From: Anaerolineae bacterium
GTDB taxonomy: Bacteria > Chloroflexota > Anaerolineae > 4572-78 > J111
Direction: 5' to 3'
DNA: 39,004 nt
Assembly (NCBI GenBank): GCA_020433805.1
Contig: JAGRBZ010000025.1
Coordinates: 1-39,004, forward strand
The translations under genes and the position numbers were made by a program. Positions 1 to 18,617 of the stretch are shown piece by piece. Below the pieces are notes generated by a model. It worked only from the letters and a program-made list of their open reading frames with translations. It was not told the DNA's origin and ran no database searches. Position 1 is the stretch's first letter. Every line of letters starts with the position of its first letter.

Positions 1-84
1 TATCACCAAAGTCACGCCAAAGGCTAAGGCTCCGTAATTAATTATCGCCGTCAGAAGAAAATCGGTGACGTTGATATCGGTCAC
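1..84 (-). CDS. DedA-family membrane protein, N-terminal fragment
   Basis: Only the first 28 codons are inside the window; the gene continues past the left edge. It starts with GTG, and its GTGA overlaps the TGA stop of the preceding gene, which implies translational coupling. The visible peptide (MTDINVTDFLLTAIIN followed by YGALAFGVTLVI) is hydrophobic and resembles the N-terminus of DedA/SNARE-associated membrane proteins, which often begin with an '..INYGALAL.. GALGVPLPG' stretch. DedA proteins are undecaprenyl-phosphate or lipid flippases/transporters in the cytoplasmic membrane. The family call rests on a short fragment and is an inference; another multi-pass membrane protein is possible. 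Confidence 0.5.
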   Translation of the reverse strand, partial: MTDINVTDFLLTAIINYGALAFGVTLVI

Positions 85-479
85 GGACCACCTCCGTCTG
101 TCGGCGGATGGTCAGCTTGGTAGAGACGAATTGCAGCTTTGACTGTCTCCACAATTGTGCCTTGCTCACCTGCCATCTGCTCGCGATTAAGATCTCGTAA
201 ACTCTTTTTTCCATTACCCTCAGCGGGAATACCGAGCTGCTCAAAAATAAATGTCTCGGGAACCTCGTAAGCTTTCGCTATGTAGGGAACGGTCATCCAG
301 CCCCGAATAGCCTCTACATCGGTTACGCCCGGTTCGAGACCGGTTTGCTGGATGCGAATGTACGATCGGGCGGCTCGTAGGCCAAAGAAACCTATTAACA
401 GCAGACCAACGACAAGAAGCCCTATAAAGATAAGCCGTTCGCCGGTAAAAACTTTGCGCGATGTTTTACTTTCAGTCAT
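81..479 (-). CDS. Small membrane-anchored protein with a helical 'WMT..' domain
   Basis: This encodes a 132-residue protein. The start is ATG at 479; the in-frame extension further upstream only re-reads the neighbouring gene in another frame. After a short basic N-terminus there is one membrane helix (about residues 15-34), then a soluble part with the pattern IRGWMTVPYIAKAYEVP...LGIP (about residues 58-85). From memory, similar short helical units occur fused or next to haem-binding and polyferredoxin membrane proteins, where they may dock a partner; this is not proven here. It lies 20 bp after the DUF4405-like gene and overlaps the DedA-like gene by 4 bp, so the three are probably one transcript. 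No enzymatic residues are recognisable. Confidence 0.7.
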   Translation of the reverse strand: MTESKTSRKVFTGERLIFIGLLVVGLLLIGFFGLRAARSYIRIQQTGLEPGVTDVEAIRGWMTVPYIAKAYEVPETFIFEQLGIPAEGNGKKSLRDLNREQMAGEQGTIVETVKAAIRLYQADHPPTDGGGP

Positions 480-499
480 AAAAATTTTCTTTGCTTTCT

Positions 500-1081
500 C
501 TAACCCACAGCATACTTTCTCGGCTTGTGGAGTACGGATTTTACCTGACGTCGGATGACACACGTTACCCAACGCCAATGGAACGCCAAATGAACTATCA
601 AAACAAGTATCAAACCCAATCCCGCCCAAAGATGTAAATCACGCCATGCGTGGCGGGTCAGGGTTAGAAAAAGCGTATTATAGAACGGATTACGCCCACC
701 TTGAAAACCCCCGCTCGGCAATACAAACGCTAAGAGCAGACCGGAAAAACTGACCAACGCGAAAACACTTAAGAGCAGTGCATCGAGCCAGAAGTTACAC
801 CGAGCTTGCTCGGCCACTTTGCCGAAGATACGAGTGGCTATACAGGTAATCCACGACCAATGGAGAATGATATGCACGGCCAGGCCGGCGAGCAGCCCGA
901 TTGCAATCCAGACGTGGATTGTAATCCAATCGTGATGAGTCAACCACAAAAAGGTGGATTCCTGATTACCGCGTCCACCGGGCACAACCTGCCACAGTAG
1001 CAGGCCAACAATGGCCGTCAGCATAAAAAGCCCAAAAAGAATTACATCGAGCCAAAAATTTACATTTGCCTTGTTTGTCAT
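500..1081 (-). CDS. Duplicated DUF4405-like haem-type membrane protein
   Basis: This is a 193-residue protein with four predicted membrane helices built from two homologous halves. Each half starts with NFWLD, continues with a helix ending in a Pro-Gly or Pro-Ser turn, and ends with a His-rich helix pair: H50, H56, H70, H74 in the first half and H144, H150, H164, H168 in the second, all exactly 94 residues apart. C80 and C174 (WITC/WVTC) keep the same offset. DUF4405 and related cytochrome-b-like proteins use such histidines to bind haem, so this is probably a transmembrane electron carrier. Its start lacks a strong Shine-Dalgarno. It sits at the head of the small-protein/DedA block and belongs to a redox locus with ApbE and a ferric-reductase-like protein. 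Confidence 0.75.
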   Translation of the reverse strand: MTNKANVNFWLDVILFGLFMLTAIVGLLLWQVVPGGRGNQESTFLWLTHHDWITIHVWIAIGLLAGLAVHIILHWSWITCIATRIFGKVAEQARCNFWLDALLLSVFALVSFSGLLLAFVLPSGGFQGGRNPFYNTLFLTLTRHAWRDLHLWAGLGLILVLIVHLAFHWRWVTCVIRRQVKSVLHKPRKYAVG

Positions 1082-1097
1082 GGTGATTTTCTTTATG

Positions 1098-1221
1098 ACT
1101 TACGCAGTTCAGAAATTCTTAACCACGAATTTCACGAATTTCACTGATTTTATCTTTTTAATTCGTGTAATTGGTGTAATTCGTGGTTAATTTTGAGACA
1201 AAGCGCTTCAACTGCGTAACT
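1098..1221. repeat. Palindromic repeat with TTACGCAGTT ends, carrying a nested foldback
   Basis: The left end ACTTACGCAGTT (1098-1109) is mirrored by AACTGCGTAACT (1210-1221), giving a 10-bp perfect terminal inverted repeat. A second element with the same ends lies at 27016-27139. The interior of this copy is a different palindrome (1119-1190). No open reading frame is inside, so it is a MITE-like or REP-like sequence. Confidence 0.7.
1119..1190. repeat. Foldback repeat TTAACCACGAATT, copy 1
   Basis: It begins TTAACCACGAATTTCACGAA and ends with TGTAATTCGTGGTTAA, so the two arms pair into a long imperfect hairpin. A second copy with the same arms is at 2239-2309. This copy lies inside the TTACGCAGTT element. 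Confidence 0.75.
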
Positions 1222-1242
1222 TCTATTTCTTACCTATTTTAC

Positions 1243-1286
1243 GACAGACAAAACCCTTTGGAGCGATGATTTCGCTCCAAAGGGTT
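1243..1286 (-). terminator. Rho-independent terminator of the Met/Gln/Gly-repeat gene
   Basis: AACCCTTTGGAGCGA (1252-1266) pairs perfectly with 1272-1286, giving a 15-bp stem with a 5-nt loop. Read on the minus strand, the stem is followed by TTTTGTCTGTC. It lies 38 bp after the stop of the gene at 1324-2169 and separates it from the DUF4405-like gene. Confidence 0.7.
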
Positions 1287-1323
1287 GCTGTTGTTTCTAA
1301 TTTTTATGTGTGGAAAAAATCAT

Positions 1324-2169
1324 CTATTGCCACCGGCTGCCGCTTTGGCGACCCATTTGTTGGCCGGTACCATCAGTGCTGTGGTCGCAGACACCATCGC
1401 CATCTTCATCGATAAAGTTGGGGCCTTGACCCTGACCGCTGTGGTCGCAGCTCGCGTTGCCGTTACCGTGACCGTGTCCCGATCCGTTCCCGTGTCCGGC
1501 TGTCCATTCGCTCTGCAACTGCTGGGTTACTTTGGCTCTCATCATAGCCAGATAGGAGTCGGCTTGCGCTTGCGTAATCTCTTCATTAGCAACTTTTTCG
1601 GCCAACTGCTCAACGCGAGGGGCTAAGAAGGCATCGACAACGGTATCAAGGGCAACGCCGTGTGCCTCAATAACCTCGGCCATCGTTTTACCTGATTGTA
1701 GTTCAGCCATCAGATCAGCTTGCTCCATACCGAGCTGCTCGGCCACGACCGTCAACATCGAGGCTTCCGGCGCACCTAATCCCAAACCATCGCCATTATT
1801 GCCCATACCCCGGCCCTGGCCTTGACCGCGCATCATTGCGCCACTCTGCATCATACCTTGACGCTGACCTTGGCCGCGCATCATCGTGCCCTCTTGCATC
1901 ATACCCTGGCCCTGACCTTGGCCGCGCATCATTCCACCGTTTTGCATCATCCCTTGGCCTTGACCTTGACCACGCATCATTGCGCCCTCTTGCATACCGG
2001 CGCGATTACCGCGACCCATACCAAGGCCGGTTTGGGCCACGATTTGATTAAGACCGAAACCGCTTCCATCTTCCGGCCCATAGGCCATCGCAACCGGAAC
2101 AATAAGGACAACGGCCAGAGCTACAACGACTGCACCAACAATAATAACGGCTAACATTTTACTATTCAC
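1324..2169 (-). CDS. Secreted Met/Gln/Gly-repeat protein, DUF2680-like
   Basis: This encodes a 281-residue exported protein. The start is GTG at 2169, because TAAGGAG lies 7 nt upstream of it; a longer in-frame extension has no ribosome site. Residues 5-30 form a membrane helix or signal anchor ending in VAMAYG. Next comes a block of four 16-residue units of type MMRGQGQGQGMMQxGx (residues 64-127). A helical domain follows (about 137-222, MLTVVAEQLGMEQADLMAEL... and ITQAQADSYLAMM), resembling DUF2680/YckD-like domains. The tail is rich in His and Gly and has two Cys and an EF-hand-like loop, DEDGDGVCD. Met/His-rich exported proteins often bind copper or silver, so metal binding is plausible but inferred. 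Its terminator is at 1243-1286, and three phased TTGTGAAG repeats lie upstream. Confidence 0.8.
   Translation of the reverse strand: MNSKMLAVIIVGAVVVALAVVLIVPVAMAYGPEDGSGFGLNQIVAQTGLGMGRGNRAGMQEGAMMRGQGQGQGMMQNGGMMRGQGQGQGMMQEGTMMRGQGQRQGMMQSGAMMRGQGQGRGMGNNGDGLGLGAPEASMLTVVAEQLGMEQADLMAELQSGKTMAEVIEAHGVALDTVVDAFLAPRVEQLAEKVANEEITQAQADSYLAMMRAKVTQQLQSEWTAGHGNGSGHGHGNGNASCDHSGQGQGPNFIDEDGDGVCDHSTDGTGQQMGRQSGSRWQ
1789..1980 (-). repeat. 48-bp coding tandem repeat (four units)
   Basis: Four 48-bp units encode MMRGQGQGQGMMQNGG and three variants. The units differ at several third codon positions, so the array is not a very recent duplication, but copy number may still vary between strains. Confidence 0.85.
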
Positions 2170-2238
2170 AATAAATCTCCTTATACAATGGGAGGCACTA
2201 GGTCCGCAAGATGGGATTGCGTACGAAGGGATAAAATC

Positions 2239-2309
2239 AACCACGAATTGCACGAATTTTCACCCATTTTATTATTCTATTCGTGTACATTTGTGTAATT
2301 CGTGGTTAA
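2239..2309. repeat. Foldback repeat TTAACCACGAATT, copy 2
   Basis: AACCACGAATTGCACGAATT at the left pairs with GTAATTCGTGGTTAA at the right. It has the same arms and nearly the same length as the copy at 1119-1190, but here without the outer TTACGCAGTT ends. It lies between the start of the Met-repeat gene and its candidate operator. Confidence 0.75.
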
Positions 2310-2356
2310 AACAGTTTCCCCATCGCATGGACCCAGTACTCAATGGGATTGTTTTT

Positions 2357-2407
2357 GTTTATTCGGAAAGATGATTGTTAACTCATCTTTATGGATTTAG
2401 AATAAAC
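2357..2407. repeat. Two-stage hairpin between ferric-reductase-like and Met-repeat genes
   Basis: An outer pair GTTTATTC (2357-2364) / GAATAAAC (2400-2407) encloses an inner pair AAAGATGA (2367-2374) / TCATCTTT (2383-2390). It has no T-run on the minus strand, so it is at best a weak terminator or an mRNA end structure for the gene ending at 2465. Confidence 0.45.
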
Positions 2408-2412
2408 AACCA

Positions 2413-2441
2413 TTGTGAAGAAGTTGTGAAGGTTTGTGAAG
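2413..2441. promoter_or_regulatory. Three phased TTGTGAAG direct repeats, candidate operator
   Basis: TTGTGAAG occurs at 2413-2420, 2424-2431 and 2434-2441, that is with 11- and 10-bp spacing on one face of the helix. Tandem half-sites of this spacing are typical for OmpR/PhoB-family regulators, and ResD of Bacillus is reported to prefer a TTTGTGAAT-like site. An OmpR-family regulator is encoded at 8251-8931. The assignment is an inference. Confidence 0.45.
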
Positions 2442-2464
2442 AAAGTTTCAGATTTCAAATCATA

Positions 2465-3280
2465 TCATAGGCGTGTCCTGGCGGGTGTACGGGCTTTGGT
2501 TTTCGATTTTGTCTTTAAGGTGAAGAGGCGATAGTAGGTGAGAAATAGTACTGTCGAGCCGGTAAACAGATAGACAAACTGCATCATCGCTGTATCGCTA
2601 TCGGTACCGGCCATAATGCCGTGCCCCAGAGCCAATGCATAGGCGAGAAACGAGATGTAGTGCATGGCGCGCCACACCTTTTGGCCAATGGTCTTGCGAA
2701 CATAAAAACTGATGGTAAGAGCCAGACACAGATAGAAGGCTATCGTCCCTACCCCCGTCCATAACGGCTCGTACGGCGCAGTAAACGGTATCGCCAGATG
2801 AAAAATGGTAAAGTCGAAATAGCTATCGCCCAACAGCACCAAACTATGCAGCACCATAAAGACGACGGATAAGATTGCCAGAAACTCATGGAGGCCGTAA
2901 ACCAATGGGGGTGCAACCCACCGAACTATTTTGGTGCTCATCACCAAACCCCACACCACAGACAGCCACAGCAATACATAAGCCACAATGCCTCCACTGC
3001 GGGCCATATACCAGTAGGCCGAGGTCTCACCCGTGAGCGGAAGCCCCATGACCTGAGCCTGATCGAAAAGGGTCGATTGCGCTCCGGCAGGTAGCCAGGC
3101 CATCAATTGGCTGCTGAGCATGGCTAAATAGCTTTGTGTTCCGGCAGCTTGATAATCGAGCCACAGCCACACCAGGGTTAGAGCGATAAAGCCACCGACA
3201 ATAACCCCCAAAGCGATAAAGAGAACGTCCAATACGGCTTTTCCGGATGATTGCGGTGAAGATTTTGAAAACGTAGTCAT
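2465..3280 (-). CDS. Ferric-reductase-like transmembrane haem protein
   Basis: This is an integral membrane protein of about 271 residues. AGGGAGA lies just before two adjacent ATG codons (3283 and 3280); the second gives the better spacing and is used here, though the first is also possible. It has about six membrane helices. Two histidine pairs, H131/H145 (LHEFL...VLHSL) and H207/H220 (MHYISF...LGHGIM), are spaced 14 and 13 residues apart, as in the b-haem-binding core of the ferric reductase-like domain (PF01794; NOX, FRE and YedZ/MsrQ relatives). No FAD- or NAD-binding domain is present, so electrons must come from or go to a partner. The neighbours are apbE, a Pro-rich anchored protein and a second haem-type membrane protein, which fits an electron route across the membrane. 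The C-terminus is strongly basic. Confidence 0.8.
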   Translation of the reverse strand: MTTFSKSSPQSSGKAVLDVLFIALGVIVGGFIALTLVWLWLDYQAAGTQSYLAMLSSQLMAWLPAGAQSTLFDQAQVMGLPLTGETSAYWYMARSGGIVAYVLLWLSVVWGLVMSTKIVRWVAPPLVYGLHEFLAILSVVFMVLHSLVLLGDSYFDFTIFHLAIPFTAPYEPLWTGVGTIAFYLCLALTISFYVRKTIGQKVWRAMHYISFLAYALALGHGIMAGTDSDTAMMQFVYLFTGSTVLFLTYYRLFTLKTKSKTKARTPARTRL

Positions 3281-3318
3281 CATATTCTCCCTAGACAGGT
3301 TTTTCATAAAGAGCAGAT

Positions 3319-3771
3319 TTAGGAGCCACGACTGCGCCGCGAACTCGATGAAGATGAAGCCGGAGCCGGGGGTGGCGCCGGCGGTGGCGTGGGAATGTCC
3401 GGCAGTGGCGCTAAGGTAGGCAGCGGGGCCAGCGTTGGCAGGGGGGCGATGTCGATGGTAGGCGGTACAAACGTATCCTCCGTCAGAGAGGATGCCGGCA
3501 ACCGGGTATTGAACATAGTCGATGTCGGGAGCAGGGTGGGAATGGGCGGCGCATCAGATAAGGGAATAATCGTAGGCCAGGATGTAGGTGAGGCTGTCGG
3601 CGATGGCGATGGGGTTGCGGTCGGTTCTACTTCGGCCTGGGCGGTTGCTATGTCAAACCGACTAATGACATTCCAGCCGCCGACAAAGCCGGCCAGGCTT
3701 AACGCAGCCAGGGTAATACGCGCGCGTTGGGTTAATTTACTGCGTTTGGGTTTGGAAATCATGGTTGTCAT
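3319..3771 (-). CDS. Membrane-anchored Thr/Pro/Ser-rich protein
   Basis: This encodes a 150-residue protein of unknown function. The start is ATG at 3771, preceded by GGAGAAACTT, and lies inside the 3' end of apbE (35-bp overlap), which implies coupled translation. A basic N-terminus is followed by one membrane helix (about residues 20-37) and then a low-complexity extracytoplasmic stretch: repeated TP/SP pairs, several PLPTLAP-type motifs, PPPAPPPAPA and a final Ser run with SRRSRGS. It has no Cys or His cluster and no FMN-binding motif of the Asp-x-x-(Ser/Thr)-Gly-Ala-Thr type, so it does not look like an ApbE substrate. A wall-spanning spacer or scaffold for the neighbouring ferric-reductase-like protein is a guess. 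Confidence 0.7.
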   Translation of the reverse strand: MTTMISKPKRSKLTQRARITLAALSLAGFVGGWNVISRFDIATAQAEVEPTATPSPSPTASPTSWPTIIPLSDAPPIPTLLPTSTMFNTRLPASSLTEDTFVPPTIDIAPLPTLAPLPTLAPLPDIPTPPPAPPPAPASSSSSSRRSRGS

Positions 3772-4771
3772 AAGTTTCTCCAATTCGCTTCGATATGTAG
3801 TAATGAAAGCCATCGGTTTGAACGATGGTCGAGTCGGCGGCAAAAATGAACCCTTCGATACCCGGTAGATGCTGCAAAAAATTCAAGCCTTGCTCAACGC
3901 CCAAGACGAGCGCCGCTTTGGCATAGACTTCGGCCATAACCGTTCGATCAGCAATGACCGAGACCGAAAGCGCGTCGGTTTGAGCCGGCTGGCCGGTGCG
4001 GGGATCGATCAGGTGGTGCATTGTCTGTCCATCGCGCTGCCAGCGCCGTTTGGTGATGGTCGAGGTTGCCAGCGCCCGATGATGGAGATCGACGTTGGCG
4101 ATAATCTGCTCCGGGTCAAGCGGGTGGCTAATGTCGATGGGCCAGCCCCGGCTGCCGGGGGGTGAACTGTAGGCAAACAGGTCGCCACCGGCGTTGATGA
4201 GGAACGGGCCAACCCCTTGCAAGGCATCCGCAGCCCGATCAACGGTCCAGCCCTTGCCCATGCCGCCTAAATCCAGCCGTAACCCCGTTGGTTTAGCAAT
4301 TTTCCGCCTGGCCCGATGAACCGTGACGGAGCGAAAGGTATAGGCCGGCCTGCGATGTTTGCTTGTTTGATGTTCGGTCACTTTCCGTTCAGGCAATTGG
4401 GTTAACGGGCTACGGTTGTCGATTGTTTCGAAACTGCGGTCGTAGCCCGCTTGTTCCAACGCACTCAGCGTAGTGGGGTCATACACACCACCGGTAGCAG
4501 CAGCCGCCCACAAAGCGACCTCAACCGCATCGATGAGGGTAGGGCTGGCAGCAAATATCGGCTGCCGGCAGGCGTTCAGTTGCGAGAGTTCGCTCGACGG
4601 ATTAAAGCGAGACAGCCGCCGCTCAAAGCTGGTAAAGAGCCGCTCTACATCGAGCAGAAGTTCGTGGTGGTTGGGCTGGCTTGAGAACAGCTCAACCGCC
4701 ACCTCGGTGTTCATCGCCCGGAAGTCGTGCCGGGTCCAGCGCCAGGTCGCCGGCGCAATGGTGCTAGTCAT
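3737..4771 (-). CDS. apbE: FAD:protein FMN transferase (ApbE family)
   Basis: ApbE enzymes transfer FMN from FAD to a Thr or Ser of extracytoplasmic flavoproteins, with Mg2+. This 344-residue protein shows the family landmarks in order: FRAMNTEVAVEL near the N-terminus, FERRLSRFNPSSELSQLN, YDPTTLSALEQAGYDRSF, LDLGGMGKGWTVDRAADAL, FLINAGGDLFAY, HHLIDPRTGQPAQTDALSVSV, and near the end MAEVYAKAALVLG, where the more usual Asp is Glu. The start is ATG at 4771, overlapping the TAG stop of the coiled-coil gene (ATGACTAG). A 50-residue Met/Thr-rich upstream extension is only an out-of-frame reading of that gene's Asp/His tail. No N-terminal signal peptide is evident with this start. No flavinylation target is visible nearby, so its substrate is unknown. 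Confidence 0.9.
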   Translation of the reverse strand: MTSTIAPATWRWTRHDFRAMNTEVAVELFSSQPNHHELLLDVERLFTSFERRLSRFNPSSELSQLNACRQPIFAASPTLIDAVEVALWAAAATGGVYDPTTLSALEQAGYDRSFETIDNRSPLTQLPERKVTEHQTSKHRRPAYTFRSVTVHRARRKIAKPTGLRLDLGGMGKGWTVDRAADALQGVGPFLINAGGDLFAYSSPPGSRGWPIDISHPLDPEQIIANVDLHHRALATSTITKRRWQRDGQTMHHLIDPRTGQPAQTDALSVSVIADRTVMAEVYAKAALVLGVEQGLNFLQHLPGIEGFIFAADSTIVQTDGFHYYISKRIGETYDNHDFQTQTQ

Positions 4772-5417
4772 CATCTTCATCTTCGTGGTCATCGTCGTGG
4801 TCCTCGTGCTCTTCGTGATCGCCATCATCATCGTCATCGTCGTGCTCTTCATAGTGGTTATTGTAACTATCGCCGCCATCATTAACGGGAACAGGTGCCG
4901 CCTGAGCCTGCTGTTGAGCAATCTCGTTGTAAGCGGCGTCTAACTGGTTCGTGACCTCACTTAATCGGGTTTGCAGTTCGCTCTCGGTCTGCTGCAATAC
5001 CGTCATTTCGGTTTGGTAACCGCTGTCATTCGTTTGGATCGATTGCTGTAGTGAGGCGGCATAGTCCTGTAATGATTGAATGTTGGCTGTGGTTTGTTCG
5101 ATCTGAGCCTGGACATCGACAAGCTGCTGCTGTAACTCGGCGATTTGGGGCTGTGATTGCTGATCTAATGTATTGATAGCCGCTTGCCGCTCATCAATTT
5201 GCGCCTGCCAGGTTGCTTCGTAAGCCTGGGCCGTAGCCTCGGCCTGGACAGCGAAATCCGGAGTCTTCGTCACAATCTGCTGCTCCTTAACCTCAACCGG
5301 GCTGGCCTGTTCCGCTTCGGCCGGTTGCGTTACAGCCGCTATTGCCGCCACAAAAATGGTAATTCCAACAATCGTCGTTAAAATCGCAGCGATAAATAAA
5401 GCAATGTTTCGTTTCAT
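4764..5417 (-). CDS. Membrane-anchored coiled-coil protein with Asp/His tail
   Basis: This encodes a 217-residue protein. The start is well marked by AAGGAG 7-8 nt before the ATG. It has one N-terminal membrane helix (residues 5-28), a Glu/Gln-rich helical region with heptad-like spacing (about 55-170), and a C-terminal tail (about 180-217) made almost entirely of Asp, Glu and His, such as EEHDDDDDDGDHEEHEDH. Such tails bind divalent metals weakly (Ca, Zn, Ni, Fe); a metal buffer or surface sensor outside the membrane is plausible but inferred. It has the same layout as the upstream coiled-coil protein, so the two may be paralogues or partners. Its stop overlaps the apbE start by 8 bp. I do not recognise a named family. 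Confidence 0.8.
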   Translation of the reverse strand: MKRNIALFIAAILTTIVGITIFVAAIAAVTQPAEAEQASPVEVKEQQIVTKTPDFAVQAEATAQAYEATWQAQIDERQAAINTLDQQSQPQIAELQQQLVDVQAQIEQTTANIQSLQDYAASLQQSIQTNDSGYQTEMTVLQQTESELQTRLSEVTNQLDAAYNEIAQQQAQAAPVPVNDGGDSYNNHYEEHDDDDDDGDHEEHEDHDDDHEDEDDD

Positions 5418-5432
5418 GGGTCTACTCCTTTT

Positions 5433-5461
5433 TAGAATAGAGAATAGAGAATAGAGAATGA
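5433..5461. repeat. Short 7-bp tandem repeat (AGAATAG)
   Basis: AGAATAG is repeated three times, followed by a diverged unit, between the two coiled-coil genes and just upstream of the ribosome site of the second. Such simple repeats can change length by slippage and could alter the leader. Confidence 0.7.
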
Positions 5462-5526
5462 AGAATTTTCACAGTTAAGTAAGAGAGCAAGTACTCAGAT
5501 AATTTTTAATAACAATCTCCCAATCC

Positions 5527-6036
5527 TCAACGCCCTAATCTGGCGTTGGCTTCGGCCAAACGCGCCTGGGCATCGGCGATAGCCTGTTGAATTTCGGTAA
5601 AACGTGTGGCGTACACGGTCTGAGCTTTGGTCAGTTCGTCTTGATAGGTAGCGACGCGACTGTCATGCAGCGTTTGCAATTCATGTGTCTGCTGGCTCAG
5701 AGTCTCGGCTTGGGCCTGTAGTTGGCTCAGTTGATTTTGCGCGGTAGCAAGCTGGCTGCTCATGTCCTGAATTTGATGGTGATAGATAGACTGTCGCTCT
5801 TGCAACGTTTGGTCCAGATCGGCAATCTGCGTTTGATACAGCGTCTCACGCCCGGTCAATTCGGTCTTGAGGCGATTCGGCTCAAACGATGCCGGAAGAG
5901 ACGGCACCGGGAGTGGCTCTGGTATACTTTCAGCCGCAGCCGGTTCGGCTTCGGTAGGCAAAAAACTAAAGACACCCACAGTAACTATAACAAACATGGT
6001 CAGCCCAACGGCTAAGATCGTACCTAGATATTTCAT
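5527..6036 (-). CDS. Membrane-anchored coiled-coil protein
   Basis: This encodes a 169-residue protein. The start is ATG at 6036, preceded by AAGGAGCACGTTG. It has one membrane helix (residues 4-26), a short Pro/Ala/Glu linker, then about 120 residues of Gln/Glu/Ala/Leu-rich helix with heptad character (for example LQERQSIYHHQIQDMSSQLA and AIADAQARLAEANARLGR). It has no Cys and no metal tail. It is the first gene after the repeat-rich gap and shares an upstream quasi-palindrome with the response-regulator gene, so it may head the regulated operon. Its layout matches the next gene (4764-5417), and the two could form a mixed coiled coil. Function unknown. Confidence 0.75.
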   Translation of the reverse strand: MKYLGTILAVGLTMFVIVTVGVFSFLPTEAEPAAAESIPEPLPVPSLPASFEPNRLKTELTGRETLYQTQIADLDQTLQERQSIYHHQIQDMSSQLATAQNQLSQLQAQAETLSQQTHELQTLHDSRVATYQDELTKAQTVYATRFTEIQQAIADAQARLAEANARLGR

Positions 6037-6122
6037 CAACGTGCTCCTTATTGGGTAACTTGCGTAGTAGCGTTATCTTTATCCAGCATAAGAGGTGGCC
6101 ATGAAAAAGCAGTGAACGGTTG

Positions 6123-6140
6123 ATGATAATTTTTTCATAA
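6123..6140. promoter_or_regulatory. Quasi-palindrome upstream of first coiled-coil gene
   Basis: ATGATAATTTTTTCATAA matches 15 of 18 positions of ATGAAAAAATTTTCATAA at 9007-9024, in front of the response-regulator gene. Both have ATGA...TTCAT dyad symmetry. It lies 87-104 bp upstream of the start at 6036. A shared binding site for the locus regulator is an inference. Confidence 0.4.
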
Positions 6141-6170
6141 TACCTTGAGTTCAATAATTAAAGCCGTGAA

Positions 6171-6202
6171 TGTCATTTCGGAGCCGGAGGCGGAGAAATC
6201 CC
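6171..6202 (+). repeat. GTCATTTCG...GGAGAAATCCC repeat, copy 1
   Basis: GTCATTTCG, about ten variable bases, then CGGAGAAATCCC. The reverse complement of the same pattern is at 6512-6541, so the two copies face each other across the foldback element. Confidence 0.65.
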
Positions 6203-6245
6203 TCAGACATTTCAAGACAGGAGGTGTTTGCCGGGAAAAAATGAA

Positions 6246-6468
6246 GATTGTTGCTTCACTAACATATACCCCCTCAATTTGGCAAACCAGAACCACTAAC
6301 AGATCGAATCACTGAGGCACTGAGGTGCTGATTTCACTGAAACGGTCACTTCTTTCAGTGGATTCAGCAAAATTCAGTGTTTCAGTGATTCAAACGATGC
6401 TGAGTTTGCCCCTGGTATAGCACGATTCTTGTCGAATCAGGGGGGTATATGTTAGTGAGATTGTTGCT
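6246..6468. mobile_element. Foldback MITE-like element with target site duplication
   Basis: The inverted ends are TCACTAACATATACCCCC (6256-6273) and its exact complement at 6441-6458. Directly outside them the 10-bp word GATTGTTGCT is duplicated (6246-6255 and 6459-6468), as expected from transposition. The interior also folds on itself (GATCGAATCACTGAGG... against ...TTTCAGTGATTCAAACGAT). No open reading frame fits inside, so it is non-autonomous; no source transposase is in the window. Confidence 0.8.
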
Positions 6469-6511
6469 TCAAATTTTCCCAAACGGACACCGTTTCAGGC
6501 GTATTGTCATA

Positions 6512-6541
6512 GGGATTTCTCCGCTACGCTGCGAAATGACA
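6512..6541 (-). repeat. GTCATTTCG...GGAGAAATCCC repeat, copy 2 (inverted)
   Basis: GGGATTTCTCCGC, a few bases, then GCGAAATGAC: the reverse complement of the pattern at 6171-6202. It is likely a REP-like dispersed repeat of this genome. Confidence 0.65.
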
Positions 6542-6628
6542 TGAGACGCATCACTTTCCGAACTCAGCAAACCGCGATGCAAGCCCCGCGTTTCCTTATA
6601 TAGTTTTTGGAAAAAGATTTTGATAGGT

Positions 6629-6729
6629 CGTCATGCCCGAATGTTTTTATCGGGCATCCACGTGGCTCTAGGCGATGGATTCCCGCTAAGCTTGTCCTCG
6701 CGTAGGCGGGGAAGCATGCGGGCATGACG
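6629..6729. repeat. Palindromic element with CGTCATGCCCG ends
   Basis: CGTCATGCCCG (6629-6639) is perfectly mirrored by CGGGCATGACG (6719-6729). Inside are two further hairpins, CCCGA...TCGGG and CCCGC...GCGGG. The sequence resembles widespread 'GTCATGCCCGC...GCGGGCATCC' intergenic palindromes. It lies about 85 bp after the histidine-kinase stop and could end or stabilise that transcript. Confidence 0.7.
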
Positions 6730-6814
6730 GGGATGGATTGCACATCTTTTATCCGTTTTATCTATTAGCAGGTTAACTTCGATTAGAATGAAAAAGAGAT
6801 GAAATAAAACCCGA

Positions 6815-8254
6815 CTAACTCTCGTCGGCTACCAACTCAAGGGGAAGAGAGACGGTAAACGTCGTGCCACGGCCAACTTCGCTGTCAACAACAATTGTCC
6901 CTTGGTGAACTTGGGCCAACCATTGGGCGATGGATAGCCCTAATCCCAATCCGCTTGCTTCCGAGGGAGACGCCAATTTGCGAGAGCGGGCTTTATCGAC
7001 GCGGTAAAAACGATCAAATAAATAAGGGAGATGTTCGGGGGGAATACCGGGGCCGGTGTCGCTAATTGCAACCTGAACACGATGGGAACGAGAGGTAACG
7101 TTCACGCAGACCGAATCGCCCGGCTCGGAATATTTGATAGCATTGTCGATAAGGTTGGTAAACAGGCGGGCCAACTTATCGGGATCAGCCGTCATAAACA
7201 GCGAAGAGGGGGCATCGAGGCGAAGGGTGATCTGTTTGGACTCGGCGCGGGGGGTGAGATGACGAACATCTCGGGCCAATAGTTCAACCACATCAAATTC
7301 TTCAAGCTGCAAGGGGTACTGTTTGTTATCAGCGCGGGCCAGCAGCAGCAGCTCTTCCACTAATCCGGTTAGCCGGTCGGCGGTGTGATTGACCATCTCC
7401 AACGTTTCGCGATACTCGGCTGCGCTACGAGGTCGAATGAGGGCAACCTCGACATCCCCTTTAAGAATGGTCAGCGGCGTACGCATCTCATGGGAAGCGT
7501 CGCCGATGAATCGTTTCTGCTGCTCGAAGCCGGCCTCAAGACGGTCGAGCATTTTATCGAACGTGGCGGCCAGCCGGCCCACTTCATCATTGGGCAGCTT
7601 GAGGTTGAGCCGCCGACTGAGGTCTTGCGTGCTTATTTGGGTAGCGGCGCGTGTAATCCGGTCGATGGGAGCCAGGGCGCTGTTGGCTAAAAACCAACCG
7701 CCGGCGCTGGCTCCTAAAATAATCAGCGGGATACTCAACCCCAACAAGATAACAAGCCGACGCTGAATATCCTGAAGTTCGGCGTAACTTTCGGCCACCT
7801 GTACTGCCCCGGCCTGCTGCTGATTGATAACAAAAGGTAACGTGTACAGGCGAACAGGCGTATTGTCGGCCAGCGCTCCATACTGAAAAGAGGGTTTATC
7901 GGTATCAAGCGTGCTATTTTTAAGGGAAGCATTGTCGAAATGGCCGGGATCGATAAAGGGCTGGCCGGACGACGTTAAAATCCGCCAAAAGACACCTGGC
8001 TCCGGGACATACTCCATTTCCGCTCTAACAGCCTGGGTCTGTTCAAACATCTCAACGGGGTGATCATCTTCATGATCAGAGTCACGCTCGAATTTGAGTT
8101 GGCTGATAATTTGATTGGCCTCGCGCTGTAGATGGTCATCGAGAGTGATTAGCAAGCTACGGCTAAGACCAAAATAGACAATGATCCCGAAAACAACCAG
8201 GATAATGGTCAGAATAGCCGTATACCATAACGTTAAGCGAAGCCGAATGTTCAT
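6815..8254 (-). CDS. Sensor histidine kinase (OmpR-partner type)
   Basis: This is a 479-residue membrane kinase. Membrane helices lie at about residues 8-30 and 167-190, enclosing a 135-residue outside loop. HAMP (about 190-243) follows, then HisKA with FIGDASHEMRTPLTILKG (H255 is the phospho-acceptor) and an HATPase domain with DTGPGIP and GLGLGLS glycine boxes. The outside loop contains DSDHEDDH (about 58-65), an acidic/His cluster that could bind a metal ion; this is inferred. Its ATG overlaps the stop of the response-regulator gene (ATGA), so the two form a coupled pair. As the first genes of a same-strand series with haem proteins, ApbE and metal-rich proteins, it likely senses a metal or redox condition. 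Confidence 0.93.
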   Translation of the reverse strand: MNIRLRLTLWYTAILTIILVVFGIIVYFGLSRSLLITLDDHLQREANQIISQLKFERDSDHEDDHPVEMFEQTQAVRAEMEYVPEPGVFWRILTSSGQPFIDPGHFDNASLKNSTLDTDKPSFQYGALADNTPVRLYTLPFVINQQQAGAVQVAESYAELQDIQRRLVILLGLSIPLIILGASAGGWFLANSALAPIDRITRAATQISTQDLSRRLNLKLPNDEVGRLAATFDKMLDRLEAGFEQQKRFIGDASHEMRTPLTILKGDVEVALIRPRSAAEYRETLEMVNHTADRLTGLVEELLLLARADNKQYPLQLEEFDVVELLARDVRHLTPRAESKQITLRLDAPSSLFMTADPDKLARLFTNLIDNAIKYSEPGDSVCVNVTSRSHRVQVAISDTGPGIPPEHLPYLFDRFYRVDKARSRKLASPSEASGLGLGLSIAQWLAQVHQGTIVVDSEVGRGTTFTVSLPLELVADES

Positions 8255-8931
8255 TCTACATCATCTAAGCGGTAACCCACACCACGCACCGTATGCAGCA
8301 GCGGCGATTCACCATTGGCCTCCAATTTCTGACGCAGATGCCGAACGTAGACATCCACGACATTGGACGCACCAAAATAGTTGTACCCCCAAATACTTTC
8401 GCGCACTTGCGTTCTGCTTAAGGGGCGACGCGGATGGCGTAAAAAGAACTCCAGCAAGGCATACTCTTTGGGGGTCAGCTCGATGTCGCGCTGACCGCGT
8501 TTAGCTTTATGGGTCACCGTATCAAGCTGGAGATCGGCAAACGTCAAGACCACGTCGGTGGTGGGTGTTGAGGCGCTGCGGCGCGTTAACGCACGAATAC
8601 GAGCCAGCAGTTCCTTGAAGGCAAAGGGTTTTGGGAGATAATCATCAGCGCCGGAGTCAAGCCCTTTCACCCGGTCATCTATTTCGTCCCGGGCTGTGAG
8701 CATTAAAATAGGTGCATCAACACTGCGCTGGCGTAAGATTTGGCAAACCTCAAAACCGGTCAGTCCGGGCAGCATCACATCAAGCAGAATTACGTCATAC
8801 TGAGCACCAGCCACCCACTCCAACGCGGAAACGCCATCAAATGCAACATCAACAGCATAGCTTTCTTCTTCCAGACCCTTCTTCAAAAATCCGGCAATCC
8901 GGTCTTCATCTTCTACTACGAGAACACGCAT
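8251..8931 (-). CDS. OmpR/PhoB-family response regulator
   Basis: This is a 226-residue regulator. Its receiver domain (1-115) has acidic residues VVEDED at the start, phospho-acceptor D51 (ILLDVMLPG), the conserved Thr in MLTARDE and the Lys in PKPF. Its winged-helix DNA-binding domain (about 125-224) has DIELTPKEYALLEFFLRHP, VDVYVRHLRQKL and TVRGVGYRL. It is transcribed first and overlaps its kinase gene by 4 bp. The ribosome site is modest (AGGGTG). A dyad at 9007-9024 and its near-copy before the coiled-coil gene are candidate binding sites, which would make it autoregulated. Confidence 0.95.
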   Translation of the reverse strand: MRVLVVEDEDRIAGFLKKGLEEESYAVDVAFDGVSALEWVAGAQYDVILLDVMLPGLTGFEVCQILRQRSVDAPILMLTARDEIDDRVKGLDSGADDYLPKPFAFKELLARIRALTRRSASTPTTDVVLTFADLQLDTVTHKAKRGQRDIELTPKEYALLEFFLRHPRRPLSRTQVRESIWGYNYFGASNVVDVYVRHLRQKLEANGESPLLHTVRGVGYRLDDVE

Positions 8932-11231: not shown

Positions 11232-12272
11232 ATGATCCGCAAATTTTTCATTATCCTTATATTGATAACGACAAGCGCCTGTCAACAGTCTGCCCCGGCC
11301 CCACAAGAAGCATCTGAACCAGTTGAAGACCAAGCCCCATCGCAGAGCGACTCACTCACCATTTACTCAGGCCGCAGCGAGAGCCTGGTCGGGCCATTAC
11401 TTGAGCAATTTAAAGAGGAAACCGGCCTCGACGTCGAAGTTCGCTACGGCGACACCGCCGAGATGGCTTCGACCATTTTGGAAGAAGGGGACAATAGTCC
11501 CGCCGACGTATACTATGGGCAAGATGCCGGCGCACTGGGGGCATTAGAAAAAGAAGGTCGCTTTGCTTCATTGCCGGAAGCCATTCTTAACCAGGTTGAA
11601 CCTGGCTTTCGTTCGCCAGAAGGGGGCTGGATTGGCACTTCCGGTCGGGCCAGAACCGTAGTTTACAACACTAACCTATTGACTGAGGCTGACCTACCCG
11701 ATGATATATTCGGCTTCTGCGACTCCCAATGGCTGGGGCGCATCGGCTGGGCACCGACCAACGGCTCATTTCAAGCCTTTGTCACCGCCCTGCGCGTTGT
11801 AGAAGGTGAAGAACGCGCTCGCGAATGGCTCTACTGCATTCAATCGAACGATCCGCTGGTCTATGCTAACAACTCATCCATTGTCGAAAGTGTCGGCAGC
11901 GGTGAAATCGAAGTCGGCTTTGTCAACCATTATTATCTGTTCCGTTATCTGGCCGAAGACCCCGATTTCCCGGCGGCCAACTACTTCCCGCGCTCCGGCG
12001 ATGTTGGGGCAATGATCAATGTGGCCGGTGTGGGCATCATCAACACCACCAACACCATGGACGCTGCCGAAACATTCGTGCAATTCCTGCTGCAAGAGAG
12101 CGCTCAGGAGTACTTTAACACCGAAACCCATGAGTACCCACTTTCAGCCGATATTCCTTTAGATCCACAACTACCGCCTCTCAACAGCTTAAACACGCCC
12201 GATATTGAGTTAAACAATCTTGATGATTTGGAAGGCACGCTCCAGTTGTTGCAAGAAGCGGGTATTCTGTAA
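11232..12272 (+). CDS. Ferric iron ABC transporter substrate-binding lipoprotein
   Basis: This 346-residue protein has a lipoprotein signal (hydrophobic residues 4-15, then TTSAC with C17 as the likely lipid anchor). The mature part starts with LTIYSGRSESLVGPLLEQF and continues EETGLDVEVRYGDTAEMAS, PADVYYGQDAG and GWIGTSGRARTVVYN, matching FbpA/FutA-type Fe(III)-binding proteins. These hold iron with Tyr residues; the NHYYLFRY segment (about 235-242) supplies the expected Tyr pair. The fit with the FbpB-like permease and FbpC-like ATPase downstream is clear, although a 449-bp gap with repeats and a possible promoter separates them. AGGAG is present but sits 12 nt from the ATG, which is long. 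Confidence 0.9.
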   Translation: MIRKFFIILILITTSACQQSAPAPQEASEPVEDQAPSQSDSLTIYSGRSESLVGPLLEQFKEETGLDVEVRYGDTAEMASTILEEGDNSPADVYYGQDAGALGALEKEGRFASLPEAILNQVEPGFRSPEGGWIGTSGRARTVVYNTNLLTEADLPDDIFGFCDSQWLGRIGWAPTNGSFQAFVTALRVVEGEERAREWLYCIQSNDPLVYANNSSIVESVGSGEIEVGFVNHYYLFRYLAEDPDFPAANYFPRSGDVGAMINVAGVGIINTTNTMDAAETFVQFLLQESAQEYFNTETHEYPLSADIPLDPQLPPLNSLNTPDIELNNLDDLEGTLQLLQEAGIL

Positions 12273-12277
12273 GGCGA

Positions 12278-12376
12278 GGAGCGGAGCATCCCTTCGACTG
12301 CGCTCAGGACAGGCCTCAGATGCGGAGCGGTTCTGTCCAACCCGTTCGCATCTGAGGATGCTTACTCCGCAGCTCC
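12278..12376. repeat. Stop-proximal palindrome, copy 2, with nested insertion
   Basis: GGAGCGGAGCATCC at the left and GGATGCTTACTCCGCAGCTC at the right form the arms. The inner arms CTCAGATGC and GCATCTGAG match copy 1 at 10796-10867. Between GCATCC and CTCAGATGC, about 23 extra bases (CTTCGACTGCGCTCAGGACA and a few more) interrupt the left arm; they are themselves a common bacterial intergenic repeat word. Confidence 0.75.
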
Positions 12377-12657
12377 TAATTCCTAACTCCTGATTTTCAT
12401 TCCCGTTGTCGTCTCATCTGAGACTATCTGGCTCCTCAGAAATCTGGCTTTCGCTGTATCGAAACCCGAATCGCTTGTAAAAGATTCCGCTTTTGTTATA
12501 GCTTCGTTGGAGATTATTTGAAAAAATTATGGTTCTATAAAGCCATCATTGGAAAATCCCTCGCAAATGTGCAGTTAGTTTAGCCCCCTTACCTATCAAC
12601 TTAACCAAGGTTATTCAACAAATTATCACCAGGCATTTCCGCCTATAACGGCAGTCA

Positions 12658-12686
12658 TTGATTAATCCATAAGCCAATTGTACTAT
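12658..12686 (+). promoter_or_regulatory. Candidate promoter for permease/ATPase
   Basis: TTGATT (12658-12663), 17 bp, then TACTAT (12681-12686). It lies 36 bp before the permease start, so the permease and ATPase can be transcribed apart from the binding-protein gene. Confidence 0.5.
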
Positions 12687-12721
12687 AAAGCGCATGCGAA
12701 ACGTGCCTTAAGGATTACCCA

Positions 12722-14368
12722 ATGACCGTAAACAACCTAAAACTATCCAGTCTTACCCTTGCTGTTCGATCTACCTGGACACAACGGACGAAACCTCATC
12801 AAGCTCCCCTATTCTTGAGGTTGGCGGCACTCATCGTAGCCGCGCTGGCGCTGCTCCCGCTGGGATATTTGATTATCCGCGCTACAGGAGCAGGCTATGA
12901 CAAAATCCTGGATATTCTTTTACGCCCTAAAACCCACGAAATTTTCTTTGGCAGCGCGGCCCTGGCCGGTTCCGTGACGCTGGCGGCAGTGACCATCGGG
13001 GTGCTGTTGGCCTGGTTAACCGTACGCACCGATTTACCGGGCCGCAAAGTGTGGGCCGTACTCACGGTGCTGCCGCTCGTTATTCCTTCGTACGTAGGCG
13101 CGTTCACATTGGTATCGGCTTTCGGGCCTAAAGGTTTGGTTCAAGGCTGGCTGGAGCCGCTGGGCATCGAGCGCCTGCCATCCATCTACGGCTTTCCCGG
13201 CGCATTTATCGCCTTGACCTTATTTTCATATCCGTACGTATTGCTCAGCGTTCGGGCAGCGCTGCGCGGCTTAGACCCCAGTTTGGAAGAAGCCGCCCGC
13301 AGTTTAGGACGCAGCCAACTGCAAGTCTTTCGCGAGATTACGCTGCCCCATCTGCGCCCATCGATGGTGGCCGGTGGTTTGCTGGTAGCCCTCTACACTC
13401 TCAGCGATTTTGGGGCCGTTTCGATGTTACGGTTCGACTCCTTTACCCGCGCTATTTATATGCAGTACAGCGCTTCTTTTGACCGCAGCGTGGCCGCCGT
13501 GCTGGCCCTGCTGCTGGTGGCGATGACGGTCGTTATCCTGATATTTGAACATCGCATGCGCGGTCAGGCCCGTTACTACCGCTCAAGTGCCGGCGCACTG
13601 CGACCGGCCCGTACGATTGCTCTGGGCAAGTGGCGCTGGCCGGCCTTCGCCTTCTGCGCAATTGTGACGCTGCTGGCTTTGGTGACGCCGCTGGCCGTTA
13701 TCGTCTTCTGGCTGGTGCGTGGTACGTTGGCCGGTGAAGCGCTCAACCTGCGGTTTGATGTCGTTTTTAACTCGCTGGTCGGCTCCGGCTTGGCCGGGTT
13801 GATGGCGATGGTCGCCGCCATTCCGGTGGCCGTGCTGGCTATCCGCTATCCGGGTCGGGTTAGCCGCTGGTTGGAGCGCAGCACTTATCTGGGCTATGCA
13901 CTACCGGGTGTGGTCATCGCGCTGTCGCTGGTTTTCTTCGGGGCCAATTATGCCCTGTTCCTCTATCAAACTATCTTTATGCTGATCTTTGCCTATGTTG
14001 TGCGCTTTTTACCACAGGCCGTCGGCAGTACGCGAGCCTCGCTGCTGCAAGTTAGCCCCCGCTTAGAAGAAGCCTCGCGCAATCTGGGCCGCACGCCGCT
14101 CCAGACGCTGTCATCCGTGACCGTGCCGCTGATCCGGCCCGGCCTGTTAACCGGCATCGCGCTGGTCTTTTTAACGGCGATGAAAGAACTTCCGGCGACG
14201 CTTATTCTCGGACCAACCGGTTTCAGCACGATGGCAACACGCATTTGGGACACTACCGCCGAAGCTTTCTTCACCCAGGCGTCCGTCCCCTCGCTGCTGC
14301 TGGTGATGGTTTCCGCTGTTGCCGTCTGGATTATCCTCTCTCAAGAAGATAAAAAAGCACGTCAATGA
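12722..14368 (+). CDS. Ferric iron ABC transporter permease (fused two-domain, FbpB type)
   Basis: This 548-residue membrane protein has two tandem binding-protein-dependent transport domains with about twelve helices in total. Each half carries the EAA loop that docks the ATPase: EEAARSLGRSQLQVFREITL near residue 192 and EEASRNLGRTPLQTLSSVTV near residue 445. This fused layout is standard for FbpB/SfuB/HitB permeases of Fe(III) importers. Its last codons overlap the ATPase gene (ATGA at 14365-14368), so both are made together. Codon use is richer in G+C than in the repeat regions around it, as expected for a core gene. Confidence 0.93.
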   Translation: MTVNNLKLSSLTLAVRSTWTQRTKPHQAPLFLRLAALIVAALALLPLGYLIIRATGAGYDKILDILLRPKTHEIFFGSAALAGSVTLAAVTIGVLLAWLTVRTDLPGRKVWAVLTVLPLVIPSYVGAFTLVSAFGPKGLVQGWLEPLGIERLPSIYGFPGAFIALTLFSYPYVLLSVRAALRGLDPSLEEAARSLGRSQLQVFREITLPHLRPSMVAGGLLVALYTLSDFGAVSMLRFDSFTRAIYMQYSASFDRSVAAVLALLLVAMTVVILIFEHRMRGQARYYRSSAGALRPARTIALGKWRWPAFAFCAIVTLLALVTPLAVIVFWLVRGTLAGEALNLRFDVVFNSLVGSGLAGLMAMVAAIPVAVLAIRYPGRVSRWLERSTYLGYALPGVVIALSLVFFGANYALFLYQTIFMLIFAYVVRFLPQAVGSTRASLLQVSPRLEEASRNLGRTPLQTLSSVTVPLIRPGLLTGIALVFLTAMKELPATLILGPTGFSTMATRIWDTTAEAFFTQASVPSLLLVMVSAVAVWIILSQEDKKARQ

Positions 14369-17286: not shown

Positions 17287-18609
17287 ATGTCCAAAATCTC
17301 TGAAGATCCACACGCAGACGACGATCGCCTTGTTTTTGATGAAGAAGCCCAGCATGTTTCAGCGGACAAGGTCGATCACTGGAAAATCATGTTGGTTGAT
17401 GATATTGCCGAAGCCCATCACGTTACCCGGCTGGCGCTACAAAAATTTGAGTTCGAAGATAAGCCGCTTAGATTTATCTCTGCTTATTCGGCTAAAGAGG
17501 CCCAGGAGTTGATCGAAGCTCATCCGGACACGGCCCTCATTCTGCTGGACGTGGTTATGGAGGAGAACGACTCCGGGTTACAACTGGCCCGCTATATTCG
17601 AAAAATCCTCAAGAATCGGTTGGTCCGTATCATTTTGCGCACCGGACAACCGGGCCACGCGCCGGAGGAAGAGGTAATCCTTGCCTACGACATCAATGAT
17701 TATAAAGTCAAAACGGAGTTAACGCGGGAAAAGTTGATGACCACCGTGCTGGGCGCGCTGCGCTCGTATCGCGATATTCAAACGGTGGAGATAAATCGCC
17801 AGGAATTGACTCAACTCTTGACCGATTTGGAAAAAAGCCACACTGACCTGGCTCAAGCCAAAGAGGCCGCGGAGGCCGCCAATCAGGCCAAAACTGCTTT
17901 TCTCGCCAATATGAGCCACGAACTGCGCACCCCCCTGAGCGCCATTTTAGGCTACACCCAACTTTTGCATGAAGATGCCCGAGAACATGGCTACACCGAC
18001 TTTGAGGCAGACCTGGGCAAAATTCAAAGAGCAGGCGAACATCTACTTCATCTGGTCGATGAGGTGTTGGATATTGCTAGACTTCAAGCTGAAAAGTTGG
18101 AGCTTCAGATCGAGCCGTTTGATATAAAAGCAATGGTTGAAACGGTGATTAAGCGGATTCATCCGGCAATCGTTGCCAACGGCAACACATTAACAACCGA
18201 GTTAGCCGATGACCTGGGCACGATGACGTCCGACTCGGGACGTGTCCGGCAAATTCTACGCAATATTCTCGACAACGCGGCCAAATTCACCCAGCAGGGA
18301 CAGATTACGCTCAATGTCCGACGAACGGTCCCTGACCCGACCGATCCGGCCCAGGCATATATTATCTTCCAAGTGAGCGATACGGGCATCGGCATGAACC
18401 CGGAACAGACAGAGCATATCTTTAAAGCGTTTACGCAAGTTGATATGTCGACGCGGCGCAAATATGGTGGCACCGGTTTGGGTTTAGCCATATCACACAG
18501 CTTGTGCCGGCTGATGGGCGGTGAAATTAGCGTCGAGAGCGATCCGGGCCAAGGCTCAACTTTTACGGTACAGCTTCCGTTAAAGCTCTCTAAATCGCAA
18601 AAGCCATAG
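17287..18609 (+). CDS. Receiver domain-histidine kinase fusion (soluble)
   Basis: This 440-residue cytoplasmic protein starts at ATG 17287 after GAGGG. The N-terminal receiver domain (about 32-160) has phospho-acceptor D88 (LILLDVVME) and the unusual segment [21 protein letters not shown], then [12 protein letters not shown] and GALRSYRDI, typical of the receiver type found before DUF3369 in HD-GYP regulators. A short coiled coil leads to HisKA with [15 protein letters not shown] (H211) and HATPase with DTGIGM and GTGLGLAIS. With the receiver first and no membrane segment, it likely takes phosphate from, or is tuned by, another kinase of the cluster. It is closely related to the receiver of the gene at 25016-26398. 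It is 8 bp from the next gene. Confidence 0.92.
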
Positions 18610-18617
18610 GGACGGTA

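Follow-up and report, generated by a model that had tools for sequence, protein, structure and literature searches.

Which protein might an ApbE, a candidate FAD:protein FMN transferase (FAD, flavin adenine dinucleotide; FMN, flavin mononucleotide), modify in a genome in which its usual FMN-binding substrate is not found? In one survey 17% of the genomes in the flavinylation set encode ApbE and no FMN-binding protein (PMC8238504). The question is raised here by contig JAGRBZ010000025.1 of an Anaerolineae bacterium (assembly GCA_020433805.1), a draft Chloroflexota genome of 9.78 Mb; the entire contig, 39,004 bases, was analysed and is called the window below. One ApbE was found in this genome, while FMN_bind, DUF2271 and NqrB/RnfD were not found in its about 90% complete sequence. 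The window ApbE (Pfam PF02424, 187 bits, above the gathering score of 25.6) adjoins a small protein, TP, and it is the conserved C-terminal tail of TP, beside an ApbE in a genome without FMN_bind protein, that is the most informative feature of the locus and that the initial annotation overlooked. We consider it probable, if only on balance, that two anchored coiled-coil proteins (CC1 and CC2), ApbE, TP and a bis-haem membrane protein (FR) form, with a response regulator and histidine kinase (RR-HK), the core of a Chloroflexota flavinylation system of the MsrQ-like kind, in which a disordered tether replaces the folded FMN_bind carrier and flavin on its tail serves FR. More tentatively, we propose that the tail is a C-terminal flavin tag of natural origin: an ApbE subfamily found throughout the phylum, cytosolic and with Glu/Lys in place of the metal-site residues, would attach FMN to the Ser near the end of TP, a disordered protein tethered to the membrane that would act as a swinging arm for a two-haem cytochrome.

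TP begins with a basic stretch, which is followed by a single helix (often ..GGW..), a Pro/Thr- or Gly-rich linker and a constant end. The linkers differ widely in length and sequence, while the tail reads SGGS, SRGS, SWGS or TGGS in relatives of the window protein, TRSSR in most other families and TRGS, TRTS, TRAS or TKAS in some. A hidden Markov model was built from the helix region only, so that proteins were not picked by their tail, and the tail was scored as [S/T]-x-[G/S/T/A/P]-[S/T] followed by at most two residues. All 55 proteins found in this way lie beside ApbE or FR and 52 of them end in the tail pattern; in two of the other three the motif is followed by an extension, and the third (L045) ends differently, perhaps because of a frameshift. 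The same pattern ends 11 of the 821 other open reading frames (ORFs) of these loci (1.3%). The final motif residue is Ser in 52/52 tailed TPs, and in the window its codon, that of the candidate acceptor, lies at 3322-3324. Because the tail is constant in about 27 families (as numbered by the genome search) while the linkers vary freely, kinship alone does not easily explain it. It is known that ApbE fixes FMN to the final Ser or Thr of the motif [S/T]-G-A-[S/T] and that engineered flavin tags perform best at the N- or C-terminus of a protein (PMC12052999). The tail Ser is proposed as acceptor because these genomes lack the usual substrate and their divergent ApbE adjoins a protein whose end, [S/T]-x-small-S, is constant. 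Two loci also possess, between CC2 and ApbE, a second, lipoprotein-like protein with a globular-looking domain that ends in SGGS (L021 6519-7307, L022 7143-7871), the L021 copy having no Pfam match. Export of TP by the twin-arginine translocation (Tat) pathway was considered and rejected, no RRxFLK-type signal being seen by eye at a fixed place.

Counts over 396 genomes of the window's class, with loci taken from draft genomes and ORFs called mechanically, place FR in 117, ApbE in 130 and FMN_bind in 28. ApbE is present in 113/117 genomes with FR, compared with 17/279 without it. The FMN_bind domain is absent from 93 of the 113 genomes that have both, and of the 102 ApbE genomes without FMN_bind 93 have FR. 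It is this class-wide count that carries the argument, since the absence of FMN_bind from the window genome is weak on its own, that genome being about 90% complete. Within the class and beyond it ApbE, TP and FR are co-located, mostly accompanied by a two-component system (both RR and HK are nearby in 47/65 loci), and TP lies at most 60 bp from ApbE or FR in 49/60 loci. Among the relatives, G007 has the full set from RR to FR (RR 78% and HK 64% identical), G008, G016, G018 and G004 have most of it, and CC1 homologues occupy the same place in families f1, f2, f3 and further ones. A scan of genome contigs for FR gave one locus, in Anaerolineales bin12. Outside the class the system is present, among others, in Chloroflexus aurantiacus J-10-fl (genome: PMC3150298), whose TP tail reads RTRSSR. 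FMN_bind is absent from 28 of the 32 system-bearing genomes tested in other classes. Further carriers outside the class are, we presume, C. aggregans, Roseiflexus RS-1 and Herpetosiphon aurantiacus. In the literature on Chloroflexi or Chloroflexus with ApbE, and on flavinylation of C-terminal tails, we found no account of this system.

The ApbEs linked to TP have no signal peptide and form a clade of their own, separated from the FMN_bind-linked ApbEs by a 100/100 branch. The catalytic Ser238 and His254 are kept in 64/64 of them. In the FMN_bind-linked ApbEs of the same class the metal-site Asp/Thr are kept in 14/14 and a Tat-type leader was recognised by eye in 12/14; their partners, where read, have DxxSGAT or DxxTGAT, for example DTISGAT, DAVTGAT and DGVTGAT. 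ApbEs of the class whose TP continues for a residue beyond SS all have an acidic residue 241, as against 3 of about 19 of the others; loci of other classes mostly obey the same rule, with L150 as an exception. To judge from this pattern of residues, ApbE may read the TP tail via residue 241. A signal-less ApbE also adjoins an FMN_bind protein that has DTISGAT and a single helix at its N-terminus (L113 of genome G012, 1818-3232), and this is a second signal-less ApbE lineage in the phylum. Export of ApbE through a frameshift fusion with CC2, to which long upstream frames over Asp/His codons had pointed, was rejected as a general explanation: L021 and L022 have other genes between CC2 and ApbE, and in 52 loci no more than 24 codons of open frame precede the ApbE domain, which also counts against it.

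The initial annotation had named two different haem-type membrane proteins, and both of them hold up. In FR the pairs H140-x13-H154 and H216-x12-H229 are invariant in nine relatives, and their spacing is that of the ferric-reductase/NOX membrane domain; FR is a candidate two-haem cytochrome; the other protein is a DUF4405 cytochrome (PF14358, 91.4 bits, gathering score 26.7). PF01794 (Ferric_reduct) does not match the window FR and matches 4/9 relatives weakly (best 2.5e-6), while among solved structures the FR profile best matches the FAD-binding FR-type protein of PDB 8qq7, with an E-value of 0.015, over the second His pair only, in the membrane part. A FAD/NADPH dehydrogenase domain of the SpNOX type was not found in FR, a protein of 280 amino acids of which nearly all is membrane part. 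An AlphaFold model from a two-sequence alignment has a predicted local distance difference test (pLDDT) score of 45, too low for the fold to be of use. Flavinylation of FR itself was rejected, as [S/T]GA[S/T] is not conserved (6/71 FR proteins).

If these components work together as we propose, the cytosolic, signal-less ApbE would transfer FMN from FAD to the TP Ser that stands at the C-terminus or at most two residues from it, in [S/T]-x-[G/S/T/A]-S. The N-terminal helix would anchor TP in the membrane, and the Pro-rich linker would leave the flavin free to swing. FR, of the two-haem NOX/MsrQ type and with no flavin/NAD domain of its own, would then exchange electrons across the membrane with the tethered flavin, and the RR-HK pair would control the system. 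Onward acceptors outside could be metal ions, the acid-tailed CC2 or, in some loci, c-type Haem_bd or multihaem cytochromes. This is in accordance with the transmembrane electron-transfer role suggested in the initial annotation, which gains support from the bis-haem FR, from the Haem_bd or multihaem c-type cytochrome that sometimes adjoins it and from the acid-tailed anchored proteins. The latter are found at most 3.5 kb away in 38/65 class loci, compared with 0/14 FMN_bind loci. In Chloroflexus aurantiacus the acid-tailed anchored protein has a PepSY domain (L145 7568-8425), and in G009 the region upstream of TP-FR encodes a multihaem cytochrome of the c type (Cytochrome_C7/CIII-like) and another membrane protein (L016 6762-9274).

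Several observations weigh against this reading. The canonical D-x-x-[S/T]-G-A-[S/T] is absent from TP, the tail of which is without Asp and has mostly Arg at position 2 and Ser/Gly at position 3. A tail lacking the canonical motif might instead be a docking or targeting signal for another partner, with ApbE modifying an unrecognised protein elsewhere in the genome, and substrates of the DUF3570, Flavodoxin_4 and FMN-reductase types were not searched for. We regard this as distinctly unlikely, as across about 27 families TP is the one small protein that is nearly always beside ApbE, and [S/T]GA[S/T] is found in no CC, TP or ApbE and, of the FR proteins, only in the few mentioned. The metal site of the TP-linked ApbEs is also altered, with Glu282 in 60/64 and Lys286 in 52/64, which makes their activity uncertain; the two positions correspond in alignment to D284 and T288 of T. 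pallidum Ftp, which we take to be metal-site residues. Such an ApbE might have lost FMN transfer and hydrolyse FAD, bind flavin or add another group to the tail, and FAD pyrophosphatases are indeed among the members of the ApbE family (PMC4767422). This is unlikely in our view, the catalytic Ser and His being retained in all 64 proteins and Thr286 in 9/64 within the same system. The covariation of residue 241 with the tail, for its part, is confounded by kinship.

The remaining objections concern the membrane. The charge bias around the TP helix places the tail outside in 50/52 proteins, while ApbE has no signal peptide; therefore either TP stays inside or its tail would need to be modified before it is exported. 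The hydrophobicity of the TP helix is low (median about +1.8 on a Hessa-type scale, compared with -0.8 for the CC anchors), so the membrane anchor of TP is itself not certain. The same flavinylation is conceivable with a cytosolic tail, TP then being an inner flavin arm that feeds electrons derived from NAD(P)H to FR in place of the NOX flavin/NAD domain. Export of ApbE would not be needed in that case, which suits an ApbE without signal peptide, a helix of such low hydrophobicity and an FR without the dehydrogenase domain of its 8qq7 relative. The positive-inside bias, however, speaks for a tail outside, and the second SGGS-ended proteins of L021 and L022 are lipoprotein-like, i.e. exported, and we therefore find an inner arm rather unlikely.

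The initial annotation had described eleven same-strand genes, which are all present on the minus strand, ten of them as complete ORFs, although the eleventh reaches only 28 codons at the contig end. From 8931 down to 1 the order is RR, HK, CC1, CC2, ApbE, TP, FR, MQG, DUF4405, small protein and DedA-like start (Table 1). The overlaps it had pointed out are likewise real, ranging from 4 to 35 nt: 4 nt between RR and HK, 11 nt (ATGATGACTAG) between CC2 and ApbE, 35 nt between ApbE and TP, and 4 nt between the small protein and DedA. The genes make up two neighbouring modules and not one, because the MQG/DedA/DUF4405 set is found elsewhere without FR and the distributions are separate. The first module (2465-8931) comprises RR-HK, CC1, CC2, ApbE, TP and FR, and the second (1-2169), which is seen elsewhere without the first, MQG, the DUF4405 cytochrome, the small protein and the DedA start. 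In G012 MQG, VTT/DedA and DUF4405 occur together with a different RR-HK pair, the VTT/DedA gene lying between the homologues, and in G013 MQG and DUF4405 occur with another RR-HK pair and no DedA gene among them; FR was found in neither genome. A VTT_dom gene stands beside DUF4405 in L127.

A conserved neighbourhood was thus borne out for the core and not for all eleven genes. That they form one module for metal response or electron transfer, which the common strand, the overlaps, a CzcS/CopS-like kinase and the Asp/His tail would favour, is very improbable: the separate distribution of the modules refutes a conserved eleven-gene unit, and a single operon was rejected as repeats also occupy the gaps. 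These gaps with palindromic repeats measure 295 nt (FR to MQG) and 242 nt (MQG to DUF4405), and a repeat-rich one of about 775 nt sets HK and CC1 apart. The two-component pair is under the heavy-metal family cut-offs as well. The best-scoring families for CzcRS/CopRS membership were NCBIfam cztR_silR_copR for RR (243.7 bits, cut-off 279.2) and cztS_silS_copS for HK (276.6 bits, cut-off 292.55), and neither protein reached its subfamily cut-off. Only this similarity below the cut-offs and the Asp/His tail would point to a metal response. Both modules fit electron transfer, the second because haem b binding has been demonstrated for one member of the flavinylation-associated DUF4405 family (PMC11334425). 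The DUF4405 gene of the window belongs to that same family; here it is in the second module and does not adjoin apbE in the relatives read.

Table 1. Genes of the two modules in the window, listed in reading order.
Feature	Position	Strand	Basis
RR, OmpR-type response regulator	8251..8931	-	Response_reg + Trans_reg_C
HK, sensor histidine kinase	6815..8254	-	2CSK_N, HAMP, HisKA, HATPase_c
CC1, anchored coiled-coil protein	5527..6036	-	N-terminal hydrophobic anchor + coiled coil
CC2, anchored coiled-coil protein with Asp/His/Glu tail	4764..5417	-	conserved position
ApbE, signal-less, candidate FAD:protein FMN transferase	3737..4774	-	PF02424
TP: N-terminal helix, Thr/Pro-rich linker, C-terminal tail S-R-G-S	3319..3771	-	tail of orthologues
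FR, bis-haem NOX/MsrQ-like membrane protein without flavin/NAD domain	2465..3307	-	invariant His pairs
MQG, Met/Gln/Gly-repeat anchored protein, DEDGDGVCDH motif	1324..2169	-	second module
DUF4405 membrane cytochrome	500..1081	-	PF14358; second module
Small protein with a single transmembrane helix	81..479	-	ORF only, no family matched; second module
DedA/VTT-like gene start	1..84	-	28 codons, cut by contig end; second module

Other observations concern further features of the window. Palindromic intergenic repeats at 1119-1190, 2233-2309 and 6190-6730 (TTAACCACGAATT... and others) divide the gene blocks and may be mobile elements or similar to repetitive extragenic palindromic (REP) elements. 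MQG ends in DEDGDGVCDH (1380-1440), which its homologue in L016 (1142-1621) has three times; this is possibly a Ca- or metal-binding Cys/His element. At 11232-14368 a binding protein and permease resembling those of an iron(III)-type ATP-binding cassette transporter were recognised by eye, and at 17287-26398 four large ORFs similar to histidine kinases and receivers follow one another on the plus strand.

The system shares with the MsrQ-like flavinylation clusters (Meheust et al. 2021, PMC8238504) a bis-haem membrane protein of the MsrQ/ferric-reductase type, apbE and a partner. In those clusters an FMN-binding domain is part of the partner, and the membrane protein often carries a NAD domain at its C-terminus, whereas the system of the window has no FMN_bind domain and a disordered partner with a Ser tail at its C-terminus; judged by its genes, it would be a new variant within them. 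Orphan apbE genes with substrates other than FMN_bind are also known for DUF2271, DUF3570, Flavodoxin_4 and FMN reductase, and flavinylated FMN reductases have a C-terminal extension that is missing in a non-covalent relative (PMC8238504, PMC11334425). These substrates are folded domains, however, while TP is without a recognised domain. A short terminal peptide is enough for modification by ApbE in the engineered flavin tag as it would be here, but that tag carries the canonical motif and the TP tail is natural with a different one (PMC12052999). With Klebsiella the system has a signal-less ApbE in common; there the cytosolic enzyme modifies a soluble fumarate reductase (PMC12052999), here the candidate is a membrane-tethered tail.

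The locus is therefore a concrete Chloroflexota candidate for the substrate of ApbEs in genomes without an FMN-binding protein. If the proposal is true, TP would be an ApbE substrate without a folded flavin domain and a natural counterpart of the engineered flavin tag, and its tail would represent a new recognition motif for labelling and the protein a new kind of mobile flavin carrier.

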